Part shown: positions 1,349-52,179 of the stretch, piece by piece | How the letters are laid out: each line of letters opens with the position of its first letter | Position numbering within the stretch: the first letter of the stretch is position 1 | IMG/VR virus record: IMGVR_UViG_3300008267_000669 | Coordinates: 7,370-61,054 of that record | Source of the DNA: a virus | Length of the DNA: 53,685 nt | Direction: 5' to 3' (one strand) | Made by a program: the position numbers and the translations under genes | The notes under the pieces: generated by a model | What the model was told of the DNA's origin: nothing | The model's database searches: none | What the model saw: the letters and a program-made list of their open reading frames with translations, nothing else

Positions 1349-1942
1349 TCACTTGAAAATATCGTCAACCCCGCTTGTGCCCAACAGGAAACCATCGGGC
1401 ATATGCTTTTCAATATTGCCACCGCGAGAGATAACATGATAGTTATTCCAAGAATAACGACTATCATCATCCATCACCAAGGGAGCGCGGAATGACATAT
1501 ATTGATTCCAGTGGTCGGGATTGTGATGGAGCCTTTCACAGTTAACAATCCGCTGATCCCTGCGATTAGTTTGGATTTTATCCCATTCAATCTGGGTCAC
1601 AATGGCAAGATGTTCTGGCTTTAGATTGTCTAGACCATCCTTGGCATAATCCTTATGGATAACCAAGGCACCGATTGACAAACCCTCCCACTTCATCTTG
1701 TCAATAACTGCCTTGCGATACTCGCTGTTCTCCTTGATATATTGAAGCATATCATTAGTGCGCTTCTCACACTTGCGCTTGGTGTGTCCCTTCTCGCTGC
1801 AATAGGAACACTTACGGGCAAGATCCCCGTCCTTATATCGCTGCTTAGTTTCAGGGGATGCCTCTGGGCATGACCGCCTGTTATGTCCCGTCTGGAAACA
1901 CCGCCTGCAATAGACCGTACGCTTACCCTTTACCCATGCCAT
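1349..1942 (-). CDS. Zinc-knuckle (CCHC) protein
   Basis: About 197 residues. Two CX2CX4HX4C zinc knuckles sit near the N-terminus (CRRCFQTGHNRRSC and CSYCSEKGHTKRKC), the motif known from retroviral Gag and single-stranded nucleic-acid-binding proteins. The rest (about residues 70-197) matches no family I recognise. The ATG at 1942 is chosen because GGAGAG lies 7 nt upstream and the protein then begins just before the first knuckle; a longer frame from 2047 would run through the promoter. A single-stranded nucleic-acid-binding role is inferred from the knuckles only. Codon use is GC-rich, like the MoxR gene. Confidence 0.75.
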   Translation of the reverse strand: MAWVKGKRTVYCRRCFQTGHNRRSCPEASPETKQRYKDGDLARKCSYCSEKGHTKRKCEKRTNDMLQYIKENSEYRKAVIDKMKWEGLSIGALVIHKDYAKDGLDNLKPEHLAIVTQIEWDKIQTNRRDQRIVNCERLHHNPDHWNQYMSFRAPLVMDDDSRYSWNNYHVISRGGNIEKHMPDGFLLGTSGVDDIFK

Positions 1943-1980
1943 TGTTTTTCTCTCCGTGGTTCGCCGTTGAAGATGTACCC

Positions 1981-2008
1981 ATAATACACCACCTATTCCC
2001 CACGTCAA
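1981..2008 (-). promoter_or_regulatory. Putative promoter for the zinc-knuckle gene
   Basis: TTGACG (2003-2008) and TATTAT (1981-1986) are separated by 16 nt on the minus strand, about 38 bp before the zinc-knuckle ATG. A TGTAAC-N6-GTGAC palindrome begins 17 bp upstream of the -35. Confidence 0.65.
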
Positions 2009-2025
2009 CCAACCCCTTCCGGGGG

Positions 2026-2043
2026 TGTAACATGGGGGTGACG
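2026..2043. promoter_or_regulatory. Palindromic operator-like site 2
   Basis: TGTAAC-N6-GTGACG, a near-perfect palindrome lying just upstream of the zinc-knuckle promoter. Its sequence is matched at 17 of 18 positions by the reverse complement of site 4. Confidence 0.55.
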
Positions 2044-2073
2044 ACACCGGCAGGTGACACTCTAACTTTTCCC

Positions 2074-2779: not shown

Positions 2780-3250
2780 TCACGTTTGCTCCATTTGTTT
2801 GGATTGACCATCCATGAAGACCTCTGCTCTCAATTCTGGAGCATTTAATATAATTAGGTCTTTCAGGGGCACAATGCTTTCCTCATCCTCAAAGATATTA
2901 TGGTACCCATTGGACTGAGCATATTCCCAACGGATATCATAACCAATAAGTATAGGACTTTGCATTACAGCTTTATCATCACTATATCTTCTATCACTTA
3001 GGATATAACCAATCATATGGGTACTTATATTTATTAGTTCCCCGGTGGATTTACGTTTGGCTACAGCTTCACTATCATTGGCTATAAAGTTCTCCACTAC
3101 TTCTTTTGGTTCCATCCAACTGTATGTAGTGAAATAAGCTTTTATCTTATCCCTGTTTAGTCTCCCGCTTATCATATAGACCATCTCCCCCTGCCCTAAT
3201 AGTAGGTGGGTGGAGGGGGGGTGGATGGGTAGTGGGTAGGTAGTACTCAT
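2780..3250 (-). CDS. Hypothetical protein, divergent last member of the small-gene array
   Basis: Up to 156 residues. The middle (IGYILSDRR, then IRWEYAQ) resembles the second and third strands of the array family but the GDLV strand is missing. The ATG at 3250 directly follows the stop of the preceding gene. Alternative ATGs at 3184 and 3175 are possible, the latter with GGGGGAG about 9 nt upstream, and would skip a low-complexity Pro/His-rich N-terminus that is encoded opposite a G-rich tract. Function unknown. Confidence 0.6.
   Translation of the reverse strand: MSTTYPLPIHPPSTHLLLGQGEMVYMISGRLNRDKIKAYFTTYSWMEPKEVVENFIANDSEAVAKRKSTGELINISTHMIGYILSDRRYSDDKAVMQSPILIGYDIRWEYAQSNGYHNIFEDEESIVPLKDLIILNAPELRAEVFMDGQSKQMEQT
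3208..3236 (+). other. G-quadruplex-forming motif
   Basis: Four runs of three or more G (3208-3210, 3215-3221, 3227-3229, 3234-3236) with 4-5-nt loops on the plus strand, which is the template strand for the local genes. It stands out in an AT-rich neighbourhood and overlaps the 5' end of the 2780-3250 gene. Confidence 0.55.
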
Positions 3251-3442
3251 TTAGCTGTTCTTTAACTCCTCTACTAGTTTGATATATGGTATGATTCTTT
3301 CACATGAAAGAATCTCTTGGAAGCCGTTATCCCAACTTACAATGTAACGAATGTCCCTTTTGTCAACCACGTGACCAAATACATATTTGTCTAGGTTGCC
3401 GGTTCTTGCTACCACTAATGTTCCTATCTTTATATCGCTCAT
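3251..3442 (-). CDS. SH3/KOW-like small protein (array member 1)
   Basis: 63 residues with the family pattern: IGTLV, then FGHVVD, then YIVSWDNG, then a C-terminal helix. It forms a subgroup with the next two genes upstream, which share FGHVV and an ELKN/DIKN-type C-terminus. It overlaps its upstream neighbour by 4 nt (ATGA), which points to translational coupling. Function unknown; an SH3-like barrel is inferred from the strand pattern. Confidence 0.75.
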   Translation of the reverse strand: MSDIKIGTLVVARTGNLDKYVFGHVVDKRDIRYIVSWDNGFQEILSCERIIPYIKLVEELKNS

Positions 3443-3696
3443 GAGTTCTTTATATCCTCTATGTTCTGGAGATAAGGTTTCATTTCCTGCTCATTGTATT
3501 GGAAATCATTACCATTATCCCACATAACACGGTAAGTCTTAATAATGTTTTTGCTACCCACAACTTCCCTTATCTCCACCACATGACCAAATAATAAACC
3601 TGTGCGCTTGCTACCATCAACTATTTTGCTGCCGTTATTTAATGCATAAAGTCCTGTTATTTTAACAGCAACAAGACTTCCGACATGGGCTTTCAT
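3439..3696 (-). CDS. SH3/KOW-like small protein (array member 2)
   Basis: 85 residues. Begins with VGSLVAV and has an extra loop of about 20 residues before FGHVVEI; the third strand is YRVMWDNG. Closest by eye to members 1 and 3. A GAGGAG Shine-Dalgarno inside the upstream gene lies about 11 nt before the ATG, and the two genes overlap by 4 nt. Function unknown. Confidence 0.75.
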   Translation of the reverse strand: MKAHVGSLVAVKITGLYALNNGSKIVDGSKRTGLLFGHVVEIREVVGSKNIIKTYRVMWDNGNDFQYNEQEMKPYLQNIEDIKNS

Positions 3697-3923
3697 GGTT
3701 TCTTCAACTCCTCAACTAAACCTAGATAGTAATCTATTTCCCGTGTATTGTAAACAAAATCATCCGCATCATCATTTAACCATATAACTCTATAAGCATA
3801 ACCATGAGGATAACTTTCGTTCTGCATTATCTCTACTACATGACCAAACAAATATTTATTCGCATTTGTTGGTAAACGCCTATGGGCAACTAGGGCACCA
3901 ACTTTTGTGATAGGATGTTTCAT
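3693..3923 (-). CDS. SH3/KOW-like small protein (array member 3)
   Basis: 76 residues with VGALVAH, FGHVVEI and YRVIWLND strands and a C-terminal helix ending ELKKP. Same subgroup as members 1 and 2. It overlaps member 4 by 4 nt and no clear Shine-Dalgarno is visible, so re-initiation after the upstream gene is likely. Function unknown. Confidence 0.75.
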   Translation of the reverse strand: MKHPITKVGALVAHRRLPTNANKYLFGHVVEIMQNESYPHGYAYRVIWLNDDADDFVYNTREIDYYLGLVEELKKP

Positions 3924-4120
3924 AGGGTTTTCTTAAACTTTAGGAAAGATTGTCTGGCTTTCATCAATTCTGTTTGTGTATATCCTGAATATAGGAGGTC
4001 ACGACCAAACCATTCTACAGACCAAGATGTTCCATATTCTTCCACAATCATTCCAATCATGTATTCTTTACCAACATACTTTAGTATTAAATCACCTAGT
4101 TTTGGAATATAATCTTTCAT
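3920..4120 (-). CDS. SH3/KOW-like small protein (array member 4)
   Basis: 66 residues: LGDLIL, IGMIVEEY, WSVEWFG and a helix ending FLKFKKTL. This is close to the array consensus GDLV, LGMI, Y-VEWY, then a helix with R..YL..R. Overlaps member 5 by 4 nt. Function unknown. Confidence 0.78.
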   Translation of the reverse strand: MKDYIPKLGDLILKYVGKEYMIGMIVEEYGTSWSVEWFGRDLLYSGYTQTELMKARQSFLKFKKTL

Positions 4121-4383
4121 TTTATACTCTTTCTAAAAGCTTCATACCATTCACGATACTGATTAATATAATCGTAAGATAATCTTTCTTTATGTCCCCG
4201 TTGATAATCTTGTGGAGTATTGAACCATTCTATCTCATATATAAACATATCTTCTTTATGTCTTAGAGCAAGACTTGGATCAAAAGTCTTTGCTGATATA
4301 TTAGTAATCATGGCAATAGAATCACCATAAGTATTAAGTGCAATTAGGTCGCCAACTTGCGGAACATAATGTTTATATTTCAT
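4117..4383 (-). CDS. SH3/KOW-like small protein (array member 5)
   Basis: 88 residues. VGDLIAL, AMITNI, YEIEWFN, with a longer loop between strands two and three and a helix with YREWYEAFRK. The ATG at 4383 is preferred over a GTG two codons earlier because it gives the standard ATGA overlap with member 6. Function unknown. Confidence 0.75.
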   Translation of the reverse strand: MKYKHYVPQVGDLIALNTYGDSIAMITNISAKTFDPSLALRHKEDMFIYEIEWFNTPQDYQRGHKERLSYDYINQYREWYEAFRKSIK

Positions 4384-4571
4384 ACCCACTTCCTAAATTT
4401 GAAATATTCTCTACGAAAGCTTTCGGTGATATATTCTGAATACCTAAATTTGTATGGTGTAACATCCGCATTGCCATACCATTCAATAATATATTGTCCT
4501 TCAAAAGCACCAATAATCATTCCAAGATTATCGCTGTTCTGTAATACAAGATCACCAATTTTTAAGTTCAT
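4380..4571 (-). CDS. SH3/KOW-like small protein (array member 6)
   Basis: 63 residues, one of the shortest and most consensus-like copies: IGDLVLQ, LGMIIGA, YIIEWYGN, then a helix with FRREYFKFRK. Four-nt overlaps on both sides. Function unknown. Confidence 0.78.
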   Translation of the reverse strand: MNLKIGDLVLQNSDNLGMIIGAFEGQYIIEWYGNADVTPYKFRYSEYITESFRREYFKFRKWV

Positions 4572-4783
4572 AGTTTATTTTTTAGTTCCCGAAAACGTTT
4601 GCGATATAGCTGCACATCATCTAAACTTGAATAAGCTGAATCAACAGATGCATCTTTATAATACCAATCTATAACATATGGAAATTCACCATCGTCGCAT
4701 ATATCCACAATCATTCCAAGAATATAATCTTTTTTATAGTCATGCACAGCAACTAATTCACCTATGTATGGAGATTCTTGCAT
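4568..4783 (-). CDS. SH3/KOW-like small protein (array member 7)
   Basis: 71 residues: IGELVAV, LGMIVDI, YVIDWYYKD, helix with YRKRFRELK. Its start lies 22 nt inside the end of member 8, a second recurring overlap class in the array. Function unknown. Confidence 0.78.
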   Translation of the reverse strand: MQESPYIGELVAVHDYKKDYILGMIVDICDDGEFPYVIDWYYKDASVDSAYSSLDDVQLYRKRFRELKNKL

Positions 4784-5001
4784 TCACTGTCTCGCCATTT
4801 TACAAATTGTATTCTAAATGTATCTATGTCGCCAATGTTGTATTCATATGACGTTGTTTCGTCAAACCATTCTACCCTATAGTAATCTGCCCGTCCACCC
4901 TTTTTATATTTATCATATATCATTCCCAATATAATCTGCTGGGTTTCATCTTCAACCGCTAGCAAATCACCAACCTGTGGTTCATAGACGATATTTTTCA
5001 T
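4762..5001 (-). CDS. SH3/KOW-like small protein (array member 8)
   Basis: 79 residues: VGDLLAV, LGMIYDKY, YRVEWFDE, helix with FRIQFVKWR. It overlaps member 9 by 20 nt. The C-terminus SECKNLHT reads through the start of member 7 and is probably a by-product of the long overlap. Function unknown. Confidence 0.76.
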   Translation of the reverse strand: MKNIVYEPQVGDLLAVEDETQQIILGMIYDKYKKGGRADYYRVEWFDETTSYEYNIGDIDTFRIQFVKWRDSECKNLHT

Positions 5002-5188
5002 AAGCTTCTCTCATTTCAACAATTTCGCCTTCATCATATCCCCAAATACTTCCATTGCCCGCCCACCAAACTTTATATGGGAAAGCAATATTTGGGGTGC
5101 TATCGTATTCAACCACAATACCAACTTGTGGCTCAACACCTGATTCTCTCCATTCATCCACAACCCCATCACCAACTTTAACAACCAT
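4982..5188 (-). CDS. SH3/KOW-like small protein (array member 9)
   Basis: 68 residues, divergent in strand one (VGDGVVD) but keeping VGIVVEY and YKVWWAG. Acidic in its second half. One base separates it from member 10. Function unknown. Confidence 0.75.
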   Translation of the reverse strand: MVVKVGDGVVDEWRESGVEPQVGIVVEYDSTPNIAFPYKVWWAGNGSIWGYDEGEIVEMREAYEKYRL

Positions 5189-5189
5189 A

Positions 5190-5399
5190 TTATTTACACT
5201 CTATTTTAAACTTTAGATATTCTTGACGCATGTGGCGTAGCGTATCATAGTTATAGTAACCAAGATGTTTGCTGTAGCCTTTGTCATACCATTCAACCAC
5301 ATAAGTTTGACTATCAAAATATGTAAGCATGCCAAGTACTACGCTTTCATAATCTAAATTATTGGCTACGAGGTCACCTAATTGCGGATCATAACCCAT
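5190..5399 (-). CDS. SH3/KOW-like small protein (array member 10)
   Basis: 69 residues: LGDLVAN, LGMLTYF, YVVEWYDK, helix with MRQEYLKFK. Overlaps member 11 by 11 nt, a third recurring overlap length. Function unknown. Confidence 0.77.
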   Translation of the reverse strand: MGYDPQLGDLVANNLDYESVVLGMLTYFDSQTYVVEWYDKGYSKHLGYYNYDTLRHMRQEYLKFKIECK

Positions 5400-5607
5400 T
5401 ATCTTTTCTCCAACTTAGATAATCTTGTCTATATTCCCTTATACGTTCCACGGGATATCCTGTTTCAACGTTTTGTTTTGTTAACCAAAGAACGCGATAC
5501 AGGGTTCCGTCTATTGCATCGGGATCATAATCTGTATATTGGCGTATCTCTTTGATTATGCCAAGAGTATTATAACCCTTGGAAGATATTTGTGGATTAT
5601 AATTCAT
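5389..5607 (-). CDS. SH3/KOW-like small protein (array member 11, degenerate first strand)
   Basis: 72 residues. The GDLV strand is lost (replaced by QISSKGYN) while LGIIKEI, YRVLWLTK and the YRQDYLSWR helix remain. It may be a decaying or neofunctionalised copy. Two bases separate it from member 12. Function unknown. Confidence 0.72.
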   Translation of the reverse strand: MNYNPQISSKGYNTLGIIKEIRQYTDYDPDAIDGTLYRVLWLTKQNVETGYPVERIREYRQDYLSWRKDNGL

Positions 5608-5609
5608 AT

Positions 5610-5828
5610 TTACATTGATAATGGATGTCTGCCGTGTTTCTTATAATAAAGAAAGTCTTGCCGCATCAAACGTACTGTTGAAACATCATAACGATAAGTA
5701 TAGCGCATCTTGCCATACCATTCAACTACAAACTTGCTACCAAGCTGTTCTATGATCATGCCATAATTTTCCATGTCCATGACCATATCGCCAACTTTTG
5801 GTCGTGTTAGGATATCTTCTTCGTCCAT
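5610..5828 (-). CDS. SH3/KOW-like small protein (array member 12)
   Basis: 72 residues: VGDMVMD, YGMIIEQ, FVVEWYGK, helix with MRQDFLYYKK. Starts 22 nt inside member 13. Function unknown. Confidence 0.77.
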   Translation of the reverse strand: MDEEDILTRPKVGDMVMDMENYGMIIEQLGSKFVVEWYGKMRYTYRYDVSTVRLMRQDFLYYKKHGRHPLSM

Positions 5829-6028
5829 TTGTTATACTCGTCTATGTAAAACATTATTTGTGCTAACGTATAGTTAACCAATTTTGTTCCCCTATATTCA
5901 CCATACCATTCAACACGATATGGAACATGCGGGATATCTTCATCGTATCCAACAATCATTCCAATAGAAAAGCGATCATCTTCTTTATAACCAACCATAT
6001 GGCCTATGTAATGTTCGCCGTATTTCAT
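5807..6028 (-). CDS. SH3/KOW-like small protein (array member 13)
   Basis: 73 residues: IGHMVGY, IGMIVGY, YRVEWYGE, helix with YIDEYNKW. Four-nt overlap with member 14 and no Shine-Dalgarno visible, so coupled translation is likely. Function unknown. Confidence 0.77.
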   Translation of the reverse strand: MKYGEHYIGHMVGYKEDDRFSIGMIVGYDEDIPHVPYRVEWYGEYRGTKLVNYTLAQIMFYIDEYNKWTKKIS

Positions 6029-6228
6029 AACGTTTTACGTAGTTCTAAATAATTATCACGAAATAGTTTTATATCATCTGGCGTATACCAAGAAAATTCC
6101 ACTTCTATTCCATACCAATCTATTTTCCAACTGCTTGTGTTTCTAGCAACAATCATACCCAAACAAGTTTTGTCACCGTAAGCTGACCATTGCTGCGCTG
6201 ATACCAAATCACCAATCTTAAAGTTCAT
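6025..6228 (-). CDS. SH3/KOW-like small protein (array member 14)
   Basis: 67 residues: IGDLVSAQ, LGMIVAR, WKIDWYG, helix with FRDNYLELRK. Its N-terminus resembles that of member 15 (both FKIGDLV), suggesting a recent duplication. Function unknown. Confidence 0.78.
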   Translation of the reverse strand: MNFKIGDLVSAQQWSAYGDKTCLGMIVARNTSSWKIDWYGIEVEFSWYTPDDIKLFRDNYLELRKTL

Positions 6229-6433
6229 TTCGTTCCTTAAGCCATAAATATTTTTGTCTTAAAGCAGTTACGTGATATCCAAGAAACCATTCGGGTTCAT
6301 CACTTCCAAACCATTCTACTTTCCAAGAATGTCCGTGCTCATGACCGACGCCTTGAGTTATCATTCCCAAACGAATACTGTCTTCCCCTTCCCAAAAATC
6401 TGTTGCCACCAAATCACCAATCTTAAATTCCAT
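6218..6433 (-). CDS. SH3/KOW-like small protein (array member 15)
   Basis: 71 residues: IGDLVATD, LGMITQG, WKVEWFGS, helix with LRQKYLWLKE. Overlaps both neighbours by 11 nt. Function unknown. Confidence 0.78.
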   Translation of the reverse strand: MEFKIGDLVATDFWEGEDSIRLGMITQGVGHEHGHSWKVEWFGSDEPEWFLGYHVTALRQKYLWLKERNEL

Positions 6434-6629
6434 TAGAATATCCTTGAAGCTTAAGCAAATTCCTGAGTGTCACAAAGTGTTCACGTAATGCTCCAACACG
6501 TTCCTCTGGAATAAGTTCCAAGCGATTTGCTGCCCATTCAACTTGATATGTTTTATCTTTAACATCATAATTGGTTATCATACCGATTTTATAACCAAAT
6601 GCTACAAGGTCACCGATTGCGTATTTCAC
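6423..6629 (-). CDS. SH3/KOW-like small protein (array member 16, GTG start)
   Basis: 68 residues: IGDLVAF, IGMITNY, YQVEWAA, helix with LREHFVTLR. The start is GTG, overlapping the TGA of member 17 (GTGA). It lacks the loop between strands one and two, the most compact version of the fold in the array. Function unknown. Confidence 0.76.
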   Translation of the reverse strand: MKYAIGDLVAFGYKIGMITNYDVKDKTYQVEWAANRLELIPEERVGALREHFVTLRNLLKLQGYSNGI

Positions 6630-6817
6630 ATTTCACCTCTTAGTTTACGAACCAAATTGTTTTTAAATGTTTCCGCCCAATGATATGCATCGGCTGAATA
6701 TCTGTTTGAATTATACCAATAAATTGTTACACCATGTTCACGTAAATTAGTAATTACACCATAACCCGCATTACGTGAATAAAGTAAATCACCAATACAG
6801 TGCTGTTGTTTGCTCAT
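6626..6817 (-). CDS. SH3/KOW-like small protein (array member 17)
   Basis: 63 residues: IGDLLYS, YGVITNL, VTIYWYN, helix with FKNNLVRKLR. Four-nt overlaps on both sides. Function unknown. Confidence 0.75.
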   Translation of the reverse strand: MSKQQHCIGDLLYSRNAGYGVITNLREHGVTIYWYNSNRYSADAYHWAETFKNNLVRKLRGEM

Positions 6818-7008
6818 AGCTTGTTTTCATCCATGTAGTTTTCAAACGTCCTGATAAAATTGTTTATTGAAAAAGTAGGATAGCTGGCAACTTCTATGTT
6901 TCCGCCAAACCATTCAACCGTATGCCATCCATTATCTATATCTGTGTAGACAACCATTCCTAACCTATAGGCATAATTCATTACCAAGCGTCCAAGGAAT
7001 TGATTCAT
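6814..7008 (-). CDS. SH3/KOW-like small protein (array member 18)
   Basis: 64 residues: LGRLVMN, LGMVVYT, HTVEWFGG, C-terminal helix. Four-nt overlaps on both sides. Function unknown. Confidence 0.76.
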   Translation of the reverse strand: MNQFLGRLVMNYAYRLGMVVYTDIDNGWHTVEWFGGNIEVASYPTFSINNFIRTFENYMDENKL

Positions 7009-7217
7009 AGTTTATTTCTTATTTTATAAGCAAGAAAGTTATCTCTAAATTCTTTCGCCGTTTGTTCAAAACAATAATATTGTCCTGAAATTGGTTTATT
7101 AGAGAGCCAATCAATATAATAATAATAAGGGTTAATATCCGTAACTATTTTGGTAATTATTCCTAATCTACTTGGGTAGCTTCCAAACACTAGGTCGCCA
7201 ACTTTAGGTACGTTCAT
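7005..7217 (-). CDS. SH3/KOW-like small protein (array member 19)
   Basis: 70 residues: VGDLVFGS, LGIITKI, YYIDWLS, helix with FRDNFLAYK. A 67-bp gap separates it from member 20, the only real gap in the array, and that gap holds a possible promoter. Function unknown. Confidence 0.76.
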   Translation of the reverse strand: MNVPKVGDLVFGSYPSRLGIITKIVTDINPYYYYIDWLSNKPISGQYYCFEQTAKEFRDNFLAYKIRNKL

Positions 7218-7245
7218 AGATACATGATACCATAACCTTTCTAGA
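7217..7245 (-). promoter_or_regulatory. Possible internal promoter of the array
   Basis: An extended -10 (TGG followed by TATCAT) lies on the minus strand just before member 19, with only a poor -35 (TTCCAA-like) about 16 nt upstream. It is the only inter-gene space in the array large enough for a promoter. Confidence 0.35.
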
Positions 7246-7284
7246 TTGGAAGAAGAAAAATATTTTTAGGCGCTTCGCGTTTTT

Positions 7285-7515
7285 TCATTCAACCCGTGCC
7301 CCGCGTTTTTCCATAAACATATAACCAGTAAAGTTATCTCTATATTCTTGCAATTTAGAAATGGATAAATTAATTTTACCTTGTTTTGGATTATATGGAT
7401 ACCACTCAACATATCCACTATTATAATCTTTAATAGTTGGATGGTAAACTAAACTGGTTATCATTCCAAGATTACCAAACTTATTCATTATCAGGTCACC
7501 CACTTTTATTGACAT
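7285..7515 (-). CDS. SH3/KOW-like small protein (array member 20)
   Basis: 76 residues: VGDLIMN, LGMITSL, GYVEWYPY, helix with YRDNFTGYM. Overlaps member 21 by 20 nt. Its C-terminus (KRGARVE) extends past the usual family end. Function unknown. Confidence 0.76.
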   Translation of the reverse strand: MSIKVGDLIMNKFGNLGMITSLVYHPTIKDYNSGYVEWYPYNPKQGKINLSISKLQEYRDNFTGYMFMEKRGARVE

Positions 7516-7723
7516 ATGTTTGTAATAGTTCTTTCCAATGCTGTATCTCTGCCCATGAATACGCTTCTCCGTTTTCTAATCCATCGGCCCAATCAACATA
7601 ATAGGAGTTCTTTTCGTACTTTCTAACAATGCCAAAAACTAAAAGTGGTGTTTCGTCAATACTTGGTGTATTAAAATTTCTAGATAAAATCAAGTCACCA
7701 ATATTATGTTTCTTTCTTGCCAT
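7496..7723 (-). CDS. SH3/KOW-like small protein (array member 21)
   Basis: 75 residues: IGDLILS, FGIVRKY, YYVDWADG, helix with WKELLQTYV. It is the rightmost typical-length copy and overlaps member 22 by 20 nt. Function unknown. Confidence 0.76.
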   Translation of the reverse strand: MARKKHNIGDLILSRNFNTPSIDETPLLVFGIVRKYEKNSYYVDWADGLENGEAYSWAEIQHWKELLQTYVNKSG

Positions 7724-8042
7724 GAGCGTCCTCTATCATATCGTTTAGTTCATACAGTGTTAAATACAAAGGAGACTTAATAATTATTTCTTTCCTACCG
7801 AAAAAGTCTATCTGTGAAAAAACCTGTACGCAGTTATAAACTTCAAACGCATACAGTGGGTTTTCTTTTTGAACCCAATCTCTAACTGATTCTGGAGAAG
7901 ACATATCGTTTATTATATCTGTTTGAATACATAAAAGCAAACCAGTATAATAATGGCTATATTTTTTTAATAATGATTTACGATTATCTTCTCGGAATTT
8001 GTACAGTTTACCTATCTCTGGTTTTATTTTTAGTTCCCGCAT
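7704..8042 (-). CDS. Divergent, enlarged array member 22
   Basis: 112 residues. It keeps a recognisable pattern (IGKLYKF, then TGLLLCI, then YAFEVYN) with longer loops, so it is probably an expanded relative of the small SH3-like proteins. Starts 35 nt inside its upstream neighbour, the longest overlap in the array. Function unknown. Confidence 0.7.
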   Translation of the reverse strand: MRELKIKPEIGKLYKFREDNRKSLLKKYSHYYTGLLLCIQTDIINDMSSPESVRDWVQKENPLYAFEVYNCVQVFSQIDFFGRKEIIIKSPLYLTLYELNDMIEDAHGKKET

Positions 8043-8301
8043 TTAATAACCTCATATCATGATGAATTTGTGTTTCATAAAACTTAAACTTACAACCAGA
8101 TATATCTGCATTTGCTTTTATGCTTGACTCCGTACCTTTATAAATGTCAACGGTATAAACCATTTCGTCTATGTGTTCTCCCGGCTCAATAGAAATAACC
8201 ATTCCGTAACCTTCATAAATTAAATCATCGTGACTCCATAGCTGCTGCTTTTCTGTACAAAATTCTAACAAGTCTCCTACTTTGAATTTATCTTCCTGCA
8301 T
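8008..8301 (-). CDS. Divergent array member 23
   Basis: 97 residues: VGDLLEF, then YGMVISI, then YTVDIYKG, ending in a helical basic tail. It resembles member 24 in length and in the long first loop. Overlaps member 24 by 25 nt. Function unknown. Confidence 0.72.
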   Translation of the reverse strand: MQEDKFKVGDLLEFCTEKQQLWSHDDLIYEGYGMVISIEPGEHIDEMVYTVDIYKGTESSIKANADISGCKFKFYETQIHHDMRLLNAGTKNKTRDR

Positions 8302-8552
8302 AAAACTCCTATATCATTTTCATCAAGTTGAATAGTAGTATTTTTAACTTCTAATTCAACAAAGTTTTTCATCTGTTGTTTGATAAGTTTTCCGCAATAA
8401 ATATGATAAACTTTATAAGTTGTTCTGGCAAAACTATTTTCTTCGTGAATTTTTTCTATATATCCTATTCCTATCAAACGGTGTCTCCAATTAGGATAAT
8501 CAAAGTTTTCTGGAATAAACTCAACCAAGTCTCCTAATTTAAATTCACTCAT
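8277..8552 (-). CDS. Divergent array member 24
   Basis: 91 residues: LGDLVEF, then IGYIEKI, then YKVYHIY. It is the first array gene to be transcribed and overlaps the upstream zinc-ribbon gene by 4 nt. Function unknown. Confidence 0.72.
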   Translation of the reverse strand: MSEFKLGDLVEFIPENFDYPNWRHRLIGIGYIEKIHEENSFARTTYKVYHIYCGKLIKQQMKNFVELEVKNTTIQLDENDIGVLCRKINSK

Positions 8553-9004
8553 GGCTTTTCTTTAAGCGTCTTATAAATCTTTTTTTCTAATCTTTCTGAT
8601 GCTTCTCGATTTGTTCTATCAAGACAATCTATACAAATATTACGTATCCAATAACCAAGATGTTCTTTCTTGGCTCTGTTTTCCTCTACAAGCTTTATAC
8701 CACAATCTTCACATACGTTTTTGCTTTCACTTTCTTTTTTATTAATAAAGGAATATATTTCCTCCATCGTATCTCTATCAGTTAAAGGTTCGCCATTTTC
8801 ATCATAATCACAATCAAAATAAATTCTTAGTAGTCCAAACTTTTCTTTAATTTGCTGTGCGTGTATATGTTTAGATTTAGATTCTACGAATTGACAAACT
8901 TCGGCCACAAGATCAAACCATCCATTACCACATTCAATATAGAAATTTTCACGAATAAAATTTGGAAATGCTACTTTAAGAATATTAGTTTTGTTTTCAG
9001 TCAT
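8549..9004 (-). CDS. Hypothetical protein with a zinc ribbon
   Basis: 151 residues. A CEDC...CIDC pair in the C-terminal half looks like a zinc ribbon. The N-terminal part (FYIECGNGWFDLV, then FGLLRIYFDCD) resembles small phage proteins of unknown function. The ATG at 9004 has GGAG 5 nt upstream; an in-frame extension to 9061 would run back through a terminator hairpin. It leads the SH3-like array operon, probably from the promoter at 9033-9061. Confidence 0.7.
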   Translation of the reverse strand: MTENKTNILKVAFPNFIRENFYIECGNGWFDLVAEVCQFVESKSKHIHAQQIKEKFGLLRIYFDCDYDENGEPLTDRDTMEEIYSFINKKESESKNVCEDCGIKLVEENRAKKEHLGYWIRNICIDCLDRTNREASERLEKKIYKTLKEKP

Positions 9005-9022: not shown

Positions 9023-9049
9023 CGCCCACCTGATTGTATCAGGTGGGCG
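9023..9049 (-). terminator. Terminator of the 9091-9369 gene, interlocked with a promoter
   Basis: A perfect 12-bp stem (9023-9034 with 9038-9049) with a 3-nt loop, followed by TTTT on the minus strand. The -10 of a putative downstream promoter (9033-9038) lies in the loop and top of the stem. Confidence 0.85.
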
Positions 9050-9465: not shown

Positions 9466-10461
9466 TTACAACTTATCGGGTGAATCACTCCAATAAATCT
9501 GTACATCTGGTAATACTTCTTGCATCCATTGTTTCATTAAATCTTCATCTTGGAAGTTAATAAGATTACCATTTACATCATATGCCTTCCATTGATTAAT
9601 CTTGCGAAGGATATCTGCTTTATTAAATACAACACGATTAACACCATTGATTCTGGCAGCTTTGCGTAAGAGTGCTGTGTTTATCCAATTACATTGACGA
9701 GGACGACCAGTTGTGGCACCATATTCACCACCAAGTTCACGAATGGTGACAAATATAGGATCAGCAGGTTCAAACTTTTTACCGCCAACATATGTCTCAT
9801 ATACTTTAGTTATTCCCCATACATTCCTAATTTTGCTTGGAGGAACGCCGTTAGCAACAGCAGCGCCAACTGTGCAAGTGGAGCTAGTGCAGTAAGGATA
9901 ATCACCAAAATCAATATCCAAACCAAATCCTTGAGCGCCTTCAAAAAGGATGCGACATCTTGTATTGTCACTATGAAGCTCTTCATATATGTCTATTAAA
10001 TAGTTTTGTAATTCTGGAATCTGTTCTGCACGAATTCCTTTTCTAGCATATTTGTCACGATATGCTGGTCCATTGCCTCGCTTCGTTGTACCTATCTTAG
10101 CATCTTGTCTATCTTCTTGCAAGTGTTCTTCTGTTATGATATGAACATTCTTTGCGATATAAACAAGACCTTCTGTTTTAATACCAGCATCCTGCAACTC
10201 CTTTAGTTCATCAAAAAATTGCTTGACGTTCATTACACAGCCGGGACCAATAATAGACTTAACGCCATGCACAACTCCTGTTGGAATTGAGTGGGTTACA
10301 ATCTTTTTACCTTCGTGATAAATGGTATGGCCTGCGTTATTTGATCCATTGTACCTAATACAATGCGTATATTCACCGCTCTTACTAAGTAAGTGTGTTA
10401 CTTTTCCCTTACCGGAATCACCATAAGCCAAGTCAACAATAACATCAGCGTAATCAATCAT
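9466..10461 (-). CDS. Adenylosuccinate synthetase family protein (PurA/PurZ-like)
   Basis: 331 residues, about 100 shorter than bacterial PurA and in the range of archaeal PurA and phage PurZ. Family blocks are all visible: YGDSGKGK near residues 13-20, NNAGHT with the catalytic His, IGTT...GNGPAY, ARKGIR with the phosphate-binding Arg, LFEGAQGFGLDID, YPYCTSSTCT, and GATTGRPRQ. PurA joins IMP and aspartate using GTP; PurZ does this with dGMP on the way to 2-aminoadenine. The Asp of GDEGKGK is kept, as in PurA, but the next Glu is Ser. The YPYCTS block and short length look PurZ-like. Substrate cannot be decided by eye. GAGGA lies 5 nt before the ATG; a TTAACA-type promoter sits at 10492-10519. 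Confidence 0.85.
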   Translation of the reverse strand: MIDYADVIVDLAYGDSGKGKVTHLLSKSGEYTHCIRYNGSNNAGHTIYHEGKKIVTHSIPTGVVHGVKSIIGPGCVMNVKQFFDELKELQDAGIKTEGLVYIAKNVHIITEEHLQEDRQDAKIGTTKRGNGPAYRDKYARKGIRAEQIPELQNYLIDIYEELHSDNTRCRILFEGAQGFGLDIDFGDYPYCTSSTCTVGAAVANGVPPSKIRNVWGITKVYETYVGGKKFEPADPIFVTIRELGGEYGATTGRPRQCNWINTALLRKAARINGVNRVVFNKADILRKINQWKAYDVNGNLINFQDEDLMKQWMQEVLPDVQIYWSDSPDKL

Positions 10462-10524: not shown

Positions 10525-11217
10525 TTATATTAAATCTCCAGCGTCTATTTTTATTTGATCATCGCGGAGACAAAGCTCTTTATATAATTCTTTATCTTCA
10601 CTCCATTTATAGCCCATCCACCATTGAAAACCGGGATATTGGCTTTTATAAATGGAACAACTTTCATACCCAGAAGATAAATAAATATATTTACACCGTT
10701 TAAAACGAGCAAAAAGAGAATTGTAGTAAACATTGACATGACCCAAAGAAAGTTTTGGTTCGCCATAATCCCACGCAAATTCTATGCCCAAGTAAGCATC
10801 GCTAATAACTTTGAAAAACGCGAATGCAATGATTTCGTTGTTGTATACGTAGTAGATATGACCATGACTATTAGAGATAATATCATCAATTGACATATCA
10901 CTACTATACCCTTTATTTTCAAGATATTTTTGATATATTTTATCAAGACGTTTCCTTTTTTCCTTTGTCATGTTTACATCGGGAAAGTGCTTAACTTTTT
11001 TAGATAGTCTTAAAACAGTTTTTGTGGGTTTATACAAATCTAAATTTATTCTTGTGCTGCGAGTTTGAAACCAAATATTTTCATTTGCTGGATACCAACC
11101 GTTTTCTAGATATTCTTTATATTCATTTGGCTCTAATAACGCAGCAGCAGGAGAATAAATTATGTTTTGATTCGACATTTTGCCGAATCCATAAGTATGG
11201 TCAAATAACCATTTCAT
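10525..11217 (-). CDS. GNAT-like protein, possibly arginyl-tRNA-protein transferase-like
   Basis: 230 residues. The N-terminal half (GWYP...WFQTRSTRI, then LRLSKK) and the C-terminal half (YYVYNNEIIAFAFFKV, GIEFAWDYGEP, LGHVNVYYN, KYIYLSSGYE) follow the pattern of the aminoacyl-tRNA-protein transferase (Ate1/Bpt) GNAT fold, which adds residues to protein N-termini. The match is by eye and moderate. No Shine-Dalgarno is clear; it follows an acidic-protein gene by 8 bp and probably shares its transcript. Confidence 0.5.
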   Translation of the reverse strand: MKWLFDHTYGFGKMSNQNIIYSPAAALLEPNEYKEYLENGWYPANENIWFQTRSTRINLDLYKPTKTVLRLSKKVKHFPDVNMTKEKRKRLDKIYQKYLENKGYSSDMSIDDIISNSHGHIYYVYNNEIIAFAFFKVISDAYLGIEFAWDYGEPKLSLGHVNVYYNSLFARFKRCKYIYLSSGYESCSIYKSQYPGFQWWMGYKWSEDKELYKELCLRDDQIKIDAGDLI

Positions 11218-20946: not shown

Positions 20947-22527
20947 TTAAGTTTCGATAATGGCATGTGAAGTAGTGAGTAATGTAGACGCAGCACTTAC
21001 AGCATTTTGTAGAGCACATCTAGTAACTTTAGCTGGATCTATAATACCTGCTGTATCTAATGCTACAAATTCTCCTGTAGCAAAATTAACACCAGACCAG
21101 AAATTGCTAGTATTTTCAACTACTTTCTCAGTCATAACGTCTGGTTTCATGCCACAGTTTTCAGCTAGTTTACGCATTGGTTCTTCGCAGGCTTTCATTA
21201 TAATCTCAACACCAAAACGTTCATCTTCATTCTCAACGCTTATTTCTTTATCAAGATTACGGGATAACTTTAATAAAGCTGTTCCACCACCCGGTAATAT
21301 ACCTTCCATCTGAGCACTTTTAACGGCTTCTAGAGCGTCTTCAATTCTATGCTTCCGTTCTACCATGTCTACCTCTGTTAAGCCTCCTACGCGAATTATA
21401 GCGATTCCAGAGGCTAATCTGGTGATACGTTCTTGTATGCGTTCACATTCTCGCATATCGCTGGTAGCAGCTATTTCAGTTTTTAATGATTCTATGCGCT
21501 TGTCTACTTCGTCATAATTACCGCCTCCTCCAACAATAGTAGTCCAAGTCTTTAAACTTTCTACTGTTTTGGCAGTACCTAAATGCTGGCGTTTCATTTC
21601 ATTAATTAATATGCCGCTTTCACGGGAAACAAATGTAGCACCAACGGATAATGCTAAATCCTTAAGAATGTTTCTACGCTCTTCACCATAACGCGGAGCT
21701 TTAATGGCAGCTACTCGCATAGAACCACGAACTGTGTTTAGGATTAATGCAGCCAATAATTGACCTTCAACGTTGTCAGCAACGATAATAAATGGTTTAT
21801 TTTCTCTAGCCGCTACTTCTAAGATAGGCATCATTTCATCAATAGAAGAAAGGCTATGATCTGTAACCATAACTAATGCATTTTCATAACGCACTGCCCC
21901 ACGTCTTTCATCAGTAATAAATTGTGGAGATACAAACCCGCTATCGAACTGGAAGCCTTCTACAATATCTAATACTGTATCTAATGCCTTGCCTTCTTCA
22001 ATTGTTACTGCTCCATCTTTACCTACCTTATCAACGGCAGTAGCAATAAGCTTGCCAATCTTATTATCACCATTGGCAGATATGGTTGCTATGTTTTCTA
22101 CATCTTCTAAGCTAGTAACTGGCTTGCTGACTTCTTTAATCTTGCTAACAATTTTTGCAGCAGCACTTTCCATGCCGCGTTTTAAATCTGTTGGAGAAGC
22201 ACCAGCAATAATATACTTTTGCGCTTGATTAACAATAGCTCTTGCTAATACTGTTGCTGTTGTTGTACCGTCACCTGCTTCTGTTGCTGTAACGGCTGAT
22301 GCTTGTTTTAATACTTGTGCCCCAACGTTTTCAAATACATCTTCTAATACAACTGCATTGGCGACCGTGACGCCATCTTTTGTGATTACAGGATTCTTGC
22401 CTTTGCTTTGAATAACAACGTTGCGTCCTTTTGGACCTAATGTACAACTTACTGCATCGGCTAGTTTATTTACACCAGTTAAAATCTTAGAGTTTAAAGA
22501 CAAACCATTATCATATACTTTCTTCAC
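20947..22527 (-). CDS. groEL: GroEL chaperonin
   Basis: 526 residues, full family length. Visible motifs are LGPKGRNVVI, ITKDGVTVA, the ATPase motif GDGTTTATVLA, the apical segment, and RVGGLTEVDMVERKHRIEDAL with the second catalytic Asp, then GILPGGG. The usual Gly-Gly-Met-rich tail is absent; it ends TTSHAIIET. The start codon is GTG. A GroES-like protein is encoded separately at 43.3 kb. Phage chaperonins are known from several large phages and may help fold virion proteins. Confidence 0.95.
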   Translation of the reverse strand: MKKVYDNGLSLNSKILTGVNKLADAVSCTLGPKGRNVVIQSKGKNPVITKDGVTVANAVVLEDVFENVGAQVLKQASAVTATEAGDGTTTATVLARAIVNQAQKYIIAGASPTDLKRGMESAAAKIVSKIKEVSKPVTSLEDVENIATISANGDNKIGKLIATAVDKVGKDGAVTIEEGKALDTVLDIVEGFQFDSGFVSPQFITDERRGAVRYENALVMVTDHSLSSIDEMMPILEVAARENKPFIIVADNVEGQLLAALILNTVRGSMRVAAIKAPRYGEERRNILKDLALSVGATFVSRESGILINEMKRQHLGTAKTVESLKTWTTIVGGGGNYDEVDKRIESLKTEIAATSDMRECERIQERITRLASGIAIIRVGGLTEVDMVERKHRIEDALEAVKSAQMEGILPGGGTALLKLSRNLDKEISVENEDERFGVEIIMKACEEPMRKLAENCGMKPDVMTEKVVENTSNFWSGVNFATGEFVALDTAGIIDPAKVTRCALQNAVSAASTLLTTSHAIIET

Positions 22528-31759: not shown

Positions 31760-32827
31760 TTATCCTAATAGTTTAAATGTGTGCTTAATACTTCTGGTGC
31801 TAAATCCCCATGTCTCATCGTACTGTAACTTACCAAGATATGGTCTGTTAAGCCAGATCTTATCCTTTTCTGGATTTACTCCCCAACACTTGATATTGGT
31901 AATCTTGTTTGTAATATCCGTAGTCTCAAGAATCCAAAACATCTTTCCATTCTTTGTTTTCTTTTCTGTAATCTTGCGAGGAATAAACCAAACAACTTCC
32001 CCTAATGCTGGCTCATAATCTCCAATCGGAGGAATATACTTATCTTCGATATTCTTTAGAGTTTTTGCATCAACAACAAGGTTGATTGGATATACACCAG
32101 AAAGTGAGGTTAGATTTTCAATTGTTTCTTCCGTTGTGAAATCTCCTTCGGGCTTATACTTATCAATATTTTCATGAAGCTTCTTAACATTCTTTGGACG
32201 GTCTACTACAACCGCAGACCAGAAGTGTTTTAATCCAGTAAATCTTTTGTCCATTAGATTATTCATAGCTCCGCTGCGTGTTAATGCGTCCAAAGCTTTC
32301 TTGTTTAGCTTGCTGTAAACAATATCTTCACTGAATAGTAAATGTTCTACATCCCTAAATGGACGATGCTTCATGATTTCCGCCATAGCAGTATCACCAA
32401 GACCCTTAATAGAAGATAGCGGTTGGATTAATGTTTTACCATCACTATCAACTTCCCATTTAGTACCAGACAAATTAATGTCTAGACCCTTGATATTATA
32501 TCCATAATATTTAGCAAGGCTTATTGCTGCTTCTTTTCTGTCTTCTGGTTCTTTATCCAAGAAGGCAGCAAGCCATTCAGCAGGGTAATGATAGAAAAGA
32601 TAAGCACACTGATAAGAAAGTATAGAATAACAGATAGCATGAGAAAGGTTAAAGCCATATCCTGAGAAGAATTCCATAGTCTTCCAAAGAGAGATTCCGT
32701 CATCCTCTGAAAGACCTTTTTCGGTGCAACCGGCAATGAACTTGCGGATTATTCTTTGCAGTGATATAATTTTCATGCACGTTTGCAGATAGAGGACCGG
32801 GACGGAAAATTGACGTAATCGCGGCAA
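31760..32827 (-). CDS. dnaE: DNA polymerase III alpha, C-terminal fragment
   Basis: 355 codons, of which about the first 28 (to about 32745) are out of the true frame. From KFIAGCTEKG onward it matches DnaE: FFSGYGFNLSHAICYSILSYQCAYLF, the helix-hairpin-helix IKGLGDTA, then the OB-fold region. The segment before it, normally containing the TYG...FQEQ block of about 60-70 residues, is missing between this frame and the middle fragment. It cannot start independently in a sensible way, so the gene is broken here. Confidence 0.8.
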   Translation of the reverse strand: MPRLRQFSVPVLYLQTCMKIISLQRIIRKFIAGCTEKGLSEDDGISLWKTMEFFSGYGFNLSHAICYSILSYQCAYLFYHYPAEWLAAFLDKEPEDRKEAAISLAKYYGYNIKGLDINLSGTKWEVDSDGKTLIQPLSSIKGLGDTAMAEIMKHRPFRDVEHLLFSEDIVYSKLNKKALDALTRSGAMNNLMDKRFTGLKHFWSAVVVDRPKNVKKLHENIDKYKPEGDFTTEETIENLTSLSGVYPINLVVDAKTLKNIEDKYIPPIGDYEPALGEVVWFIPRKITEKKTKNGKMFWILETTDITNKITNIKCWGVNPEKDKIWLNRPYLGKLQYDETWGFSTRSIKHTFKLLG

Positions 32828-34577
32828 TATCTACAATGTTCTTTGGCTTTGCTTGCATACAGAATTTCTGTGCATTCTTGCTAGTGAACTGGAATGTTCC
32901 ACAGAAATTGCCTTCATTAAAGACATGCTTATATACACCTTCGTCATTAAGGTCAATCTTTTCTGGATGTAGCTTTTCATTGTAATACTTCTTGATATCC
33001 GCAAATGACGGATTTGGCATATTGTGGTGCCGCTTCAAGATATGCTCAATCGCACCTTCAATCATGCGAAGTGAAGCAAGGCCAAGGATATCAAACTTAA
33101 TGAATCCAAGCGGTTCTAAATGACGAACGGTTTGTCCTTCGGTCCAAGGAGTTTGAATAATACCACCGCTGTTAATTAGCGGCATTACTTGGTCAATATT
33201 GTCTGCAAACAATACACCACCAGCATGGCGAGAGATTGAACGAACTTGCTTCTGCAAGTTATCAACGTGTGTCGCAACGTGTGGATATTTCTTTAGATAT
33301 GACACAAGAGAAGGAGAATGTTCCTTTAACTCTTCCCAAGTAGGCTCATACACACCCGCAATAATTCCATGAATCTTCTTACAGACAGGAGTTGCCTCAT
33401 GAATCATTTTGGACGTAACTTCGTTTACCTCTGTAAAAGGAATGCCATATAGCTTGCTGATATCCTTAACAAGAGAACGTGCCTTTAGAGTGTTATAATT
33501 TGAGATAGGAACAACAGTGTTCTCACCGAATTCCTTGATAAACATTTCCTTGATTTCCATCGGGTCGGAAACGTCAAAGTCAATATCAGGCATGTCCTTT
33601 GCATTACGGCGAATAAAACGTGAGAACTGAAGCTTATACTTGATTGGGTCTACCTCTGTAATATTGAGGAGATAAGATACAAGCGAACCTGCGCCAGAGC
33701 CACGACCTGCACCGCAAAGCTGGACTTCTTTAGACTTGTCCGAAATCTTTTTCATTGTAAGGAAATACTTGGAGAATCCACGGTCCTTAATGGTGTGGAG
33801 TTCTTCCTTAAGTCTGGAAACATAATCGTTGTCTTTGTACAGACCAGTATTCTTTAATGCATCAACGGCAATCTTTGCCAATGCGCTATCAGCACTTTCG
33901 CCTTCTGGAATAACGAAGGACGGAAGCTTAACTGCCGTATCAGGCATATAATCTTCAATGCGATTCTTGAGAATATCCGCAGTACGAGCGATACTCTCCT
34001 CTACCAATTTATCATCGTAATTAAATCCAAGAGCGCCTGAAAAACGCTTATACGTTGCGAATAGTTCGTCACCATTCTTGGGATAAAGTTGGTATTCCAT
34101 TTCTTCCAATGTGTGTGGAAGCGCATCAATCTTAAGTTCATTCTTACCTTTTCCAAGCCAGCCAAGCATCTTATAAATCTCACGGTCCTTCCACATATCT
34201 GGTGAAGGAAAATGTGCATCACAAGTGCTGATAAGTTTGAAGCCAAATTGCTTGGAAAGATTAATAACAAACTGATTTACAATATGTTGCTCTTTATAGT
34301 TTGCCCATTGCAACTCACCATAAAAGCGGTCGCCAAAGATATCCATCATATTCTGGACAGTCTTTTCCATTGCTGCATAAACAGCCTTCTCGCCCTTATC
34401 TATGTTTGCCCAATAATCATTACTCAACACTCCACCAAGGCAGGCAGAGCTTGCAATAACTCCCTCATTATACTTCTTGAGCATTTCATAATCCATACGT
34501 GGGAAACGATAAAAGTTATCCCCACGATATGAATCTGAAACAAGCTTAAATATCAACTTGCTTGGCGAGCTTTGCAT
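32700..34577 (-). CDS. dnaE: DNA polymerase III alpha, middle fragment with palm domain
   Basis: 625 codons. FKLVSDSYRG through to AITSIFRPGPLSANVHENYITAKNNP match DnaE, including GAGRGSGAGSLVSY and the catalytic PDIDFDV. The last about 13 codons (after about 32745) read the C-terminal fragment's DNA in the wrong frame. The first residues (MQSSPS) likewise overlap the N-terminal fragment out of frame. Catalytic Asp residues are present, but conserved segments are lost at both ends. Confidence 0.85.
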   Translation of the reverse strand: MQSSPSKLIFKLVSDSYRGDNFYRFPRMDYEMLKKYNEGVIASSACLGGVLSNDYWANIDKGEKAVYAAMEKTVQNMMDIFGDRFYGELQWANYKEQHIVNQFVINLSKQFGFKLISTCDAHFPSPDMWKDREIYKMLGWLGKGKNELKIDALPHTLEEMEYQLYPKNGDELFATYKRFSGALGFNYDDKLVEESIARTADILKNRIEDYMPDTAVKLPSFVIPEGESADSALAKIAVDALKNTGLYKDNDYVSRLKEELHTIKDRGFSKYFLTMKKISDKSKEVQLCGAGRGSGAGSLVSYLLNITEVDPIKYKLQFSRFIRRNAKDMPDIDFDVSDPMEIKEMFIKEFGENTVVPISNYNTLKARSLVKDISKLYGIPFTEVNEVTSKMIHEATPVCKKIHGIIAGVYEPTWEELKEHSPSLVSYLKKYPHVATHVDNLQKQVRSISRHAGGVLFADNIDQVMPLINSGGIIQTPWTEGQTVRHLEPLGFIKFDILGLASLRMIEGAIEHILKRHHNMPNPSFADIKKYYNEKLHPEKIDLNDEGVYKHVFNEGNFCGTFQFTSKNAQKFCMQAKPKNIVDIAAITSIFRPGPLSANVHENYITAKNNPQVHCRLHRKRSFRG

Positions 34578-50982: not shown

Positions 50983-51010
50983 ATAGTACCACACTATTTC
51001 GTGCTTGCAA
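50983..51010 (-). promoter_or_regulatory. Putative promoter for dCMP deaminase
   Basis: TTGCAA (51005-51010), 16-nt spacer, TACTAT (50983-50988) with extended -10 TGG, about 30 bp before the ATG. The -35 lies within the end of the upstream gene. Confidence 0.5.
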
Positions 51011-51206
51011 CATCATTTAATAAACGTAAATTTTTTGATTGTAGAGTAATAATCCAATTATTGGATAAAAACGTAACCTCTACTAAACCATCGGGAAATA
51101 TATGAGTTATCATTCCTAAATGTTCCTTGGGATATGAGCCGTCAATAGAACCACCCATATCCCAAGAAACTAATTGTCCAATTTTAGGTTTAAACTTTGA
51201 TTTCAT
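50994..51206 (-). CDS. SH3/KOW-like small protein, solitary relative of the array
   Basis: 70 residues: IGQLVSW, LGMITHI, LVEVTFLSNNW, closing strand SKNLRLL. First two strands match the array consensus closely although it lies 43 kb away. Overlaps the UvdE gene by 17 nt. Function unknown. Confidence 0.68.
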   Translation of the reverse strand: MKSKFKPKIGQLVSWDMGGSIDGSYPKEHLGMITHIFPDGLVEVTFLSNNWIITLQSKNLRLLNDVASTK

Positions 51207-52119: not shown

Positions 52120-52138
52120 ATAATCTCCAAATAAAAAA

Positions 52139-52167
52139 CCGCACCAGTACATACTACACTGGTGCGG
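52139..52167 (-). terminator. Terminator after recA, interlocked with a promoter
   Basis: A perfect 10-bp stem (52139-52148 with 52158-52167), 9-nt loop, followed by TTTTTTATTT on the minus strand; the UvdE Shine-Dalgarno follows directly. Confidence 0.88.
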
Positions 52168-52179
52168 CTCTACTTGCAA
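52151..52179 (-). promoter_or_regulatory. Putative promoter inside the recA terminator
   Basis: TTGCAA (52174-52179), 17-nt spacer, TAGTAT (52151-52156), which lies in the hairpin loop. The start point would fall in the 3' arm. Confidence 0.45.

Follow-up and report, generated by a model that had tools for sequence, protein, structure and literature searches.

A tandem array of 21 short, intact genes, all encoding diverged members of one protein family with a predicted SH3-like small barrel fold, occupies the minus strand at 3251-7723 of a 53,685-nucleotide (nt) stretch of viral DNA. This whole stretch, here called the window, comprises positions 7370-61054 of the 61-kb IMG/VR virus record IMGVR_UViG_3300008267_000669. 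Uncultured phages of one clade, with contigs of up to 190-290 kb, carry such arrays beside genes for a MoxR-VWA pair. We read the array as a repertoire of diverse interaction modules that is expressed early, is driven by recombination and acts against host functions, a reading that we judge about equally likely to hold or to fail.

Large lytic phages are rich in small genes to which no function is assigned, and how these genes arise and turn over is poorly understood. In the present case a region of this kind is filled by one protein family, with 1 to 21 copies at one site and the joints for exchange visible in the DNA. Two questions become testable: how a phage assembles its set of proteins that act on the host, and whether one minimal fold can be retargeted repeatedly within one genome.

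Array members

The 21 open reading frames (ORFs) lie head to tail and encode 63-90 amino acids (aa). In transcription order they are 7496-7723, 7285-7515, 7005-7217, 6814-7008, 6626-6817, 6423-6629, 6218-6433, 6025-6228, 5807-6028, 5610-5828, 5389-5607, 5190-5399, 4982-5188, 4762-5001, 4568-4783, 4380-4571, 4117-4389 (or 4117-4383), 3920-4120, 3693-3923, 3439-3696 and 3251-3442, all on the minus strand. The joints between them are mostly overlaps of 4, 11 or 20-22 nt, and there is a 67-nt gap at 7218-7284.

All-against-all BLASTP gave many significant pairs at 20-45% identity, with a best expectation value (E) of 2.6e-12. A profile of the 21 proteins matched each of them at E 4e-10 to 7e-22, a result that is not independent because the profile was made from the same proteins. 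After the profile had been widened with relatives from other contigs it found all 21 at E 3e-6 or better, and reversed or shuffled decoy ORFs gave zero matches in any profile round. The first-pass annotation of this DNA, which had described 21 short, intact, related genes arranged head to tail, was right on these points. It had also counted three longer relatives, two of which stand: 8008-8301 (minus strand, 97 aa, widened profile E 2.6e-6), 93% identical to its orthologue in the close relative 3300034200_001896, and 8277-8552 (minus strand, 91 aa, E 2.3e-6), which has homologues in the related loci L007, L008 and L021 and is kept also where the array shrinks to one gene. The third, 7704-8042 (minus strand, 112 aa), is a gene inside the operon with an orthologue 87% identical in the close relative; it did not reach E 1e-3 with the widened profile, and its family membership is unsupported. 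Since it stays below the profile threshold, 3251-8552 holds 23 members (21 array genes, 8008-8301 and 8277-8552), not 24. An isolated member lies far from the array at 50994-51206 (minus strand, E 9e-6), and seven more copies to the left of the window (L005) bring the total for the record to 31. Family genes form a second, small cluster where the record begins on the left (L005:14-685); some of them are nearly unchanged in the relative (up to 100% identity), and the cluster may run past the contig end.

An assembly artefact was rejected because an independently assembled contig, IMG/VR 3300034200_001896, has an orthologous array. Dose amplification by alike copies was rejected as well, since the array copies are only about 15-45% identical. 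A further candidate, similarity due only to the conserved joint (the MKVGDLV start and ESR end described below), was rejected by a core-only profile control, which in three rounds found 37, 123 and 205 of 1497 relatives, 2 of 9620 other ORFs and 0 shuffled ones; the core alone confirms only those 205 of the 1497. No Pfam or PHROG family covers the array proteins tested.

Predicted fold and conserved core

The family belongs, by prediction only, to the SH3-like small barrel fold class. The AlphaFold2 model of the member 6025-6228, made with 118 aligned members, has a mean predicted local distance difference test score (pLDDT) of 93.9, an SH3-like strand arrangement and a helix at residues 50-66, in agreement with the SH3-like fold plus C-terminal helix proposed at first pass. 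The model of a relative's member (L097:4987-5187, pLDDT 86.1) is a five-stranded barrel without the C-terminal helix. Foldseek gave no match at E <= 1e-3 for either model, the ranked folds being consistently of the SH3-like class: PWWP, MBT and Tudor domains, all weak, for 6025-6228, and PetP, YorP, PWWP, Tudor and ribosomal SH3-like domains for the relative's member. Weak sequence matches to KOWx_SPT5, Tudor_5, Spin-Ssty and NdhO fall in the same fold class, and others were to chromodomain and PWWP proteins. The earlier label 'KOW-like' is apt for the fold class and not for the KOW family itself, which was matched by 1 of 118 members (KOWx_SPT5, E 6.5e-4, with no other KOW match).

The alignment columns bear out the shared motifs and wide divergence noticed at first pass, with a conserved core and a very variable remainder. 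The conserved columns (G6, D7, L8, V9, G24, I26, Y34, V36, W38 and L/I53) would build the core or tight turns, to judge from hydrophobicity and secondary structure; the remaining columns are mostly highly variable, near maximal entropy. Charge varies between copies (isoelectric point, pI, 4.3-9.2), window members are mostly acidic or neutral, and no basic patch is conserved among the alignment columns. PADLOC defence models gave one marginal match among the 118 members (E 0.0095). In one relative a single reading frame encodes both a family domain and a GIY-YIG nuclease domain (L073:14330-14797, E 2e-16), and several longer proteins in relatives (e.g. L030:15859-16533) have a C-terminal family domain.

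Copy number and selection at one site

Copy number was compared in the interval between the orthologues of two flanking genes. The upstream edge of this variable site is 8549-9004 (minus strand), the first gene of the probable operon, encoding 151 aa with cysteine motifs, and the downstream edge is 2780-3250 (minus strand, 156 aa); L007, L008, L009, L021 and 3300034200_001896 have orthologues of both. Leaving out the 8277-8552 homologue where present, the site holds one family gene in L007, one in L008, two in L021, 6-8 in L009 (depending on threshold), 18 in 3300034200_001896 and 21 in the window phage, so that copy number, suggested at first pass as a comparison to make between related phages, does vary. 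The synthetase-like neighbour in L007 and L008 is 89-90% identical.

Contig 3300034200_001896 (85.8 kb) was the only one found with close relatives of single window members. Its array region aligns with that of the window in pieces, at 75-91% DNA identity. Reciprocal orthologues exist for 15 of the 21 window units and six have none; in the reverse direction 3 of its 18 array units lack an orthologue in the window array. The ratio of nonsynonymous to synonymous substitution rates (dN/dS) of the 15 pairs ranges from 0.05 to 0.49 with a median of 0.19, by which the orthologues are under purifying selection at the sequence level, as befits the diversified family under selection that had been proposed. 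Some units at orthologous positions are merely 49-58% identical, as if they had been replaced. The four indels examined all have their breaks at gene boundaries, some beside short shared stretches.

Joints between genes

In most relatives successive family genes share an exact 14-nt overlap, which joins 270 of 430 such pairs and has a sequence logo of approximately TTGGAGGTNATCARTGAAAGTCGGTGATTTRGT. Read in the first frame, the joint encodes L-E-V-I-S/N-E-S-R-stop, the C-terminus of one gene; in the other frame it supplies the Shine-Dalgarno sequence, the start codon and the M-K-V-G-D-L-V beginning of the next. The joint is kept at the nucleotide and not merely the amino-acid level, because codon use in the block departs from that of gene interiors: glutamate is GAG in 98% of cases in the block versus 42% inside genes, arginine CGG in 93% versus 7%, and serine AGT in 100% versus 20%. 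Among 615 block copies in distinct contexts 517 begin a family gene, 383 end one and 96 end another ORF. Other genes may therefore use the joint too, and some of these 96 ORFs are probably diverged members. The window lineage is without the 14-nt block, its joints being ATGA-type and longer overlaps.

Among relatives we found 22 clean indels of whole genes with the joint retained, most commonly one 14-nt joint against two; whole genes are gained and lost at shared joints between relatives, as in modular shuffling. Recombination at a joint would delete, add or swap complete genes, because frame, start and ribosome-binding site stay together. 'Semilegitimate' recombination at short regulatory signals, including translation-initiation regions, has been proposed in T4-type phages, according to a passage in PMC4177764. 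The window phage encodes a RecA/UvsX-like protein.

Distribution and MoxR linkage

The first set of loci was collected through the MoxR and synthetase-like neighbours. After four profile rounds it held 906 distinct family ORFs, 2 of them antisense, with 0 in decoys; with loci added later there were 1590 family ORFs, 1268 of them distinct. The densest array has up to 31 family ORFs in 21 kb (L040), and a 159-kb relative has its 32 copies all at 126-148 kb on a single strand. At first pass no other array of this size was known; it is not unique, and comparable arrays occur in many uncultured relatives. Cultured phages, searched by DNA and protein, gave no convincing relative and one weak match in a Klebsiella phage (E 1e-3), and the tandem joint pattern is absent from 84,980 bacterial and archaeal genomes. 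The family tree, 74 of whose 123 inner branches were too poorly supported to be drawn, mainly separates the copies of block-type phages (5 changes versus 41.6 in shuffles).

The anchor gene beside arrays in relatives encodes a MoxR-type AAA+ ATPase (181-1230 in the window, minus strand; phrog_1297 at E 1e-52, AAA_5), and a DUF2201 metallopeptidase-VWA gene follows it. Because the first set had been chosen through MoxR, the linkage was retested without MoxR, using 58 stretches found by the tandem joint pattern alone, which led to 37 further records. MoxR is present in 27 of the 37, including 9 of 9 longer than 100 kb, two of whose MoxR matches are at 36-38% identity. Sampling bias was rejected as the source of the linkage, since the MoxR-free scan gave the same result. 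Where both are listed, MoxR shares the strand of the joints and is at most about 10 kb away from them (e.g. G035, G042, G054 and G061); in G027 the distance is 11-26 kb. The MoxR-VWA pair also occurs in relatives with no family gene or one nearby.

Promoters and terminator

With no more than one mismatch allowed, the coding strand of the 159-kb relative has 29 sigma-70-like sites. The array region, 123-150 kb, contains 17 of them, a concentration with a binomial p of 5e-7 for region limits picked after viewing the data. Over all loci there are 89 exact consensus promoters on the coding strand and 1 on the opposite strand. As sigma-70-like sites concentrate in the array region of that relative, early transcription by host polymerase is suggested. 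In the window phage near-consensus sigma-70 sites sit in the left cluster, outside the window, with none in the array, which in this phage too would be expressed early. A strong terminator-like hairpin precedes the array operon at 9023-9049 (minus strand; 12-bp stem with 8 GC, T-run); because the total number of terminator-like sites equals chance, it is only a candidate terminator. At 2074-2103, within 700 bp that contain no clear genes, the plus strand has a perfect sigma-70 consensus promoter (TTGACA-18-TATAAT with TG), whereas all genes are on the other strand. It is the sole antisense site among the 90 exact ones, and the relative keeps it with TATACT.

Interpretation

In the repertoire that we propose, each gene would give one free-standing SH3-like barrel with a fixed core and other residues differing per copy. 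The barrels would bind and disable or redirect different host or defence proteins, the useful subset differing per host, and the set would be altered by gain, loss and exchange of whole genes. Recombination is the probable cause of this turnover: taking place at an abutting or overlapping, shared translation-start segment (in the window lineage a short overlap of ATGA type or one somewhat longer, in most relatives the 14-nt block with its ribosome-binding site), it would leave an intact, translated gene. A repertoire of binders of host or defence proteins fits because one fold, variable non-core residues, turnover, purifying selection and an early-type region come together. Action on host proteins or against host defences, suggested at first pass, would agree with it. 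Several observations weigh against this reading. No near-consensus promoter lies within the window's own array. The 15 orthologue pairs show no sign of positive selection in dN/dS, the array median of 0.19 differs only marginally (p 0.05) from the 0.12 of neighbouring genes, and the variable residues may drift freely rather than be selected for binding. Among known counter-defence or takeover proteins none is matched by a member, though no search covered the counter-defence proteins as a set.

If the barrels were instead nucleic-acid-binding proteins of KOW/Sso7d-like or Tudor-like type, they might coat DNA or RNA or tune transcription or translation, as proposed for T4 MotB, a DNA-binding protein in which a KOW domain is predicted (PMC7827196). 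The fold class is common to KOW, PWWP, Tudor and ribosomal domains, a zinc-knuckle gene (1349-2047) is a neighbour and the fusion in L073 is to a GIY-YIG nuclease; but charge lends no support to the shared nucleic-acid-binding role raised at first pass, with pI values of 4.3-9.2, mostly acidic or neutral window members and no conserved basic patch, and a shared ligand would not need 20-30 diverged copies. We regard this explanation as possible if unlikely. The most interesting of the rivals, which we consider rather improbable, makes the barrels interchangeable adaptors, or else clients, of the MoxR-VWA AAA+ machine that the phage itself encodes: every barrel would hand over a different protein, to be remodelled or to be cut by the metallopeptidase-VWA partner. 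The arrays adjoin MoxR on the same strand, 27 of 37 joint-pattern records carry it, the DUF2201 metallopeptidase-VWA gene comes after it, and phage adaptors of AAA+ proteins have a precedent in Gp53 of SPO1 (PMC6873191). Yet the pair exists in relatives with no or one nearby family gene, it is found also in jumbo phages, for which a role in virion assembly has been put forward (PMC7824862), and the linkage may merely mark a variable region. An elaboration to which we give still less credit is a shuffled library of free-standing SH3-like adaptors that feeds different host targets to the MoxR-VWA unfoldase, the dual-coding joint uniting ribosome-binding site, start, stop and recombination site.

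SH3-like domains are known in phage structural proteins, and the barrels might be minor structural or scaffold proteins of the virion processed with MoxR-VWA help, in line with the assembly role put forward for the pair in jumbo phages (PMC7824862). We find this very unlikely, as the array region of the 159-kb relative is rich in host-type promoters, copy number runs from 1 to 21 among close relatives and no structural gene was recognised beside the array. Least credible to us is neutral proliferation, in which recombination at the joints would multiply and replace the genes while the phage gains little: the range of 1 to 21 copies at the same site and the indels of whole genes would follow, but the frames are all intact, the 15 orthologue pairs under purifying selection already count against it, and the copies are old and diverged rather than fresh duplicates.

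Other genes of the window

The zinc-knuckle gene at 1349-2047 (minus strand; zf-CCHC_2, E 5.8e-5, below Pfam's cut-off) lies between the array and MoxR and contains a stretch that resembles the family core by eye, not significantly. The adenylosuccinate-synthetase-like product of 9466-10461 (minus strand) matches the phage 2-amino-adenylosuccinate synthetase family (phrog_1211, E 4e-70), from which the genome may carry modified adenine. A weak match of 10525-11217 (minus strand) to the C-terminal, acetyltransferase-like domain of arginyl-tRNA-protein transferase (E 4e-5) falls just below Pfam's cut-off. A DnaE-like DNA polymerase III alpha is encoded at 31760-34577 (minus strand) in two overlapping ORFs, 32700-34577 and 31760-32827, which match successive parts of one family and reflect a natural split, a frameshift or a sequencing error. 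A GroEL-like chaperonin (20947-22527), a ribonucleotide reductase (44159-46021), an endonuclease (51190-52179) and the RecA/UvsX-like recombinase (52191-53333) are also on the minus strand. No tRNA genes or known RNA families were found.

Comparison with known systems

A limited literature search found no clade-wide SH3-like array with dual-coding cassette joints. The joints of PeSLs, mobile regulatory cassettes of T4-type phages, as attributed to Arbiol 2010 and Comeau 2014, reportedly consist of a promoter and a stem-loop between genes of many families. Here, in contrast, the joint is a coding overlap with a ribosome-binding site, and nearly all units are of one family; the early promoter and stem-loop between units are missing, in that units abut or overlap, the window array has no near-consensus promoter and terminator-like sites are no commoner than chance. 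The likeness is to PeSLs and hyperplastic regions in which small lineage-specific genes are swapped as modules via short conserved regulatory sequences (in passages cited in PMC4177764 and PMC4503421).

Modular early phage regions (SPO1, PMC6873191; T4 type) and expansion of a single domain (phage G, PMC7824862) were already known. The SPO1 host takeover module has about 26 mostly small early-region genes with strong expression signals and various host targets (PMC6873191), and the array shares with it the clustering of many small genes. For the SPO1 genes, however, neither membership of one family nor exchangeable joints are described, while early expression and host targets, which are features of SPO1, are for the array only inferred. 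In the marine cyanophage S-PM2 small unique genes likewise sit together, in an ORFanage region, and the phage stays viable when all of it is lost; its 33 ORFans are not described as one family (PMC4503421). According to part of PMC7824862, Bacillus phage G carries about 35 copies of a zinc ribbon, and as with the array it is one small domain of a large phage that has expanded in a lineage-specific way; the fold differs, and that part of the source reports no tandem array, copy-number variation or joints. A MoxR-VWA-type pair, proposed for virion assembly, is described in group 2.2 jumbo phages (PMC7824862).

At the level of structure, PetP (7r0w, 2n5u) and YorP of the SPbeta region (2heq) are the best matches of L097:4987-5187 (Foldseek probability 1.00, TM-score 0.68-0.72), but there is no sequence match, and the window member with the C-terminal helix ranks PWWP, MBT and Tudor instead. 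T4 MotB, an early protein of its phage, resembles the family in that its N-terminal domain is predicted to be SH3-like/KOW (PMC7827196); it adds an OB-fold domain and is a single gene, whereas the array members are single barrels of 63-90 aa.

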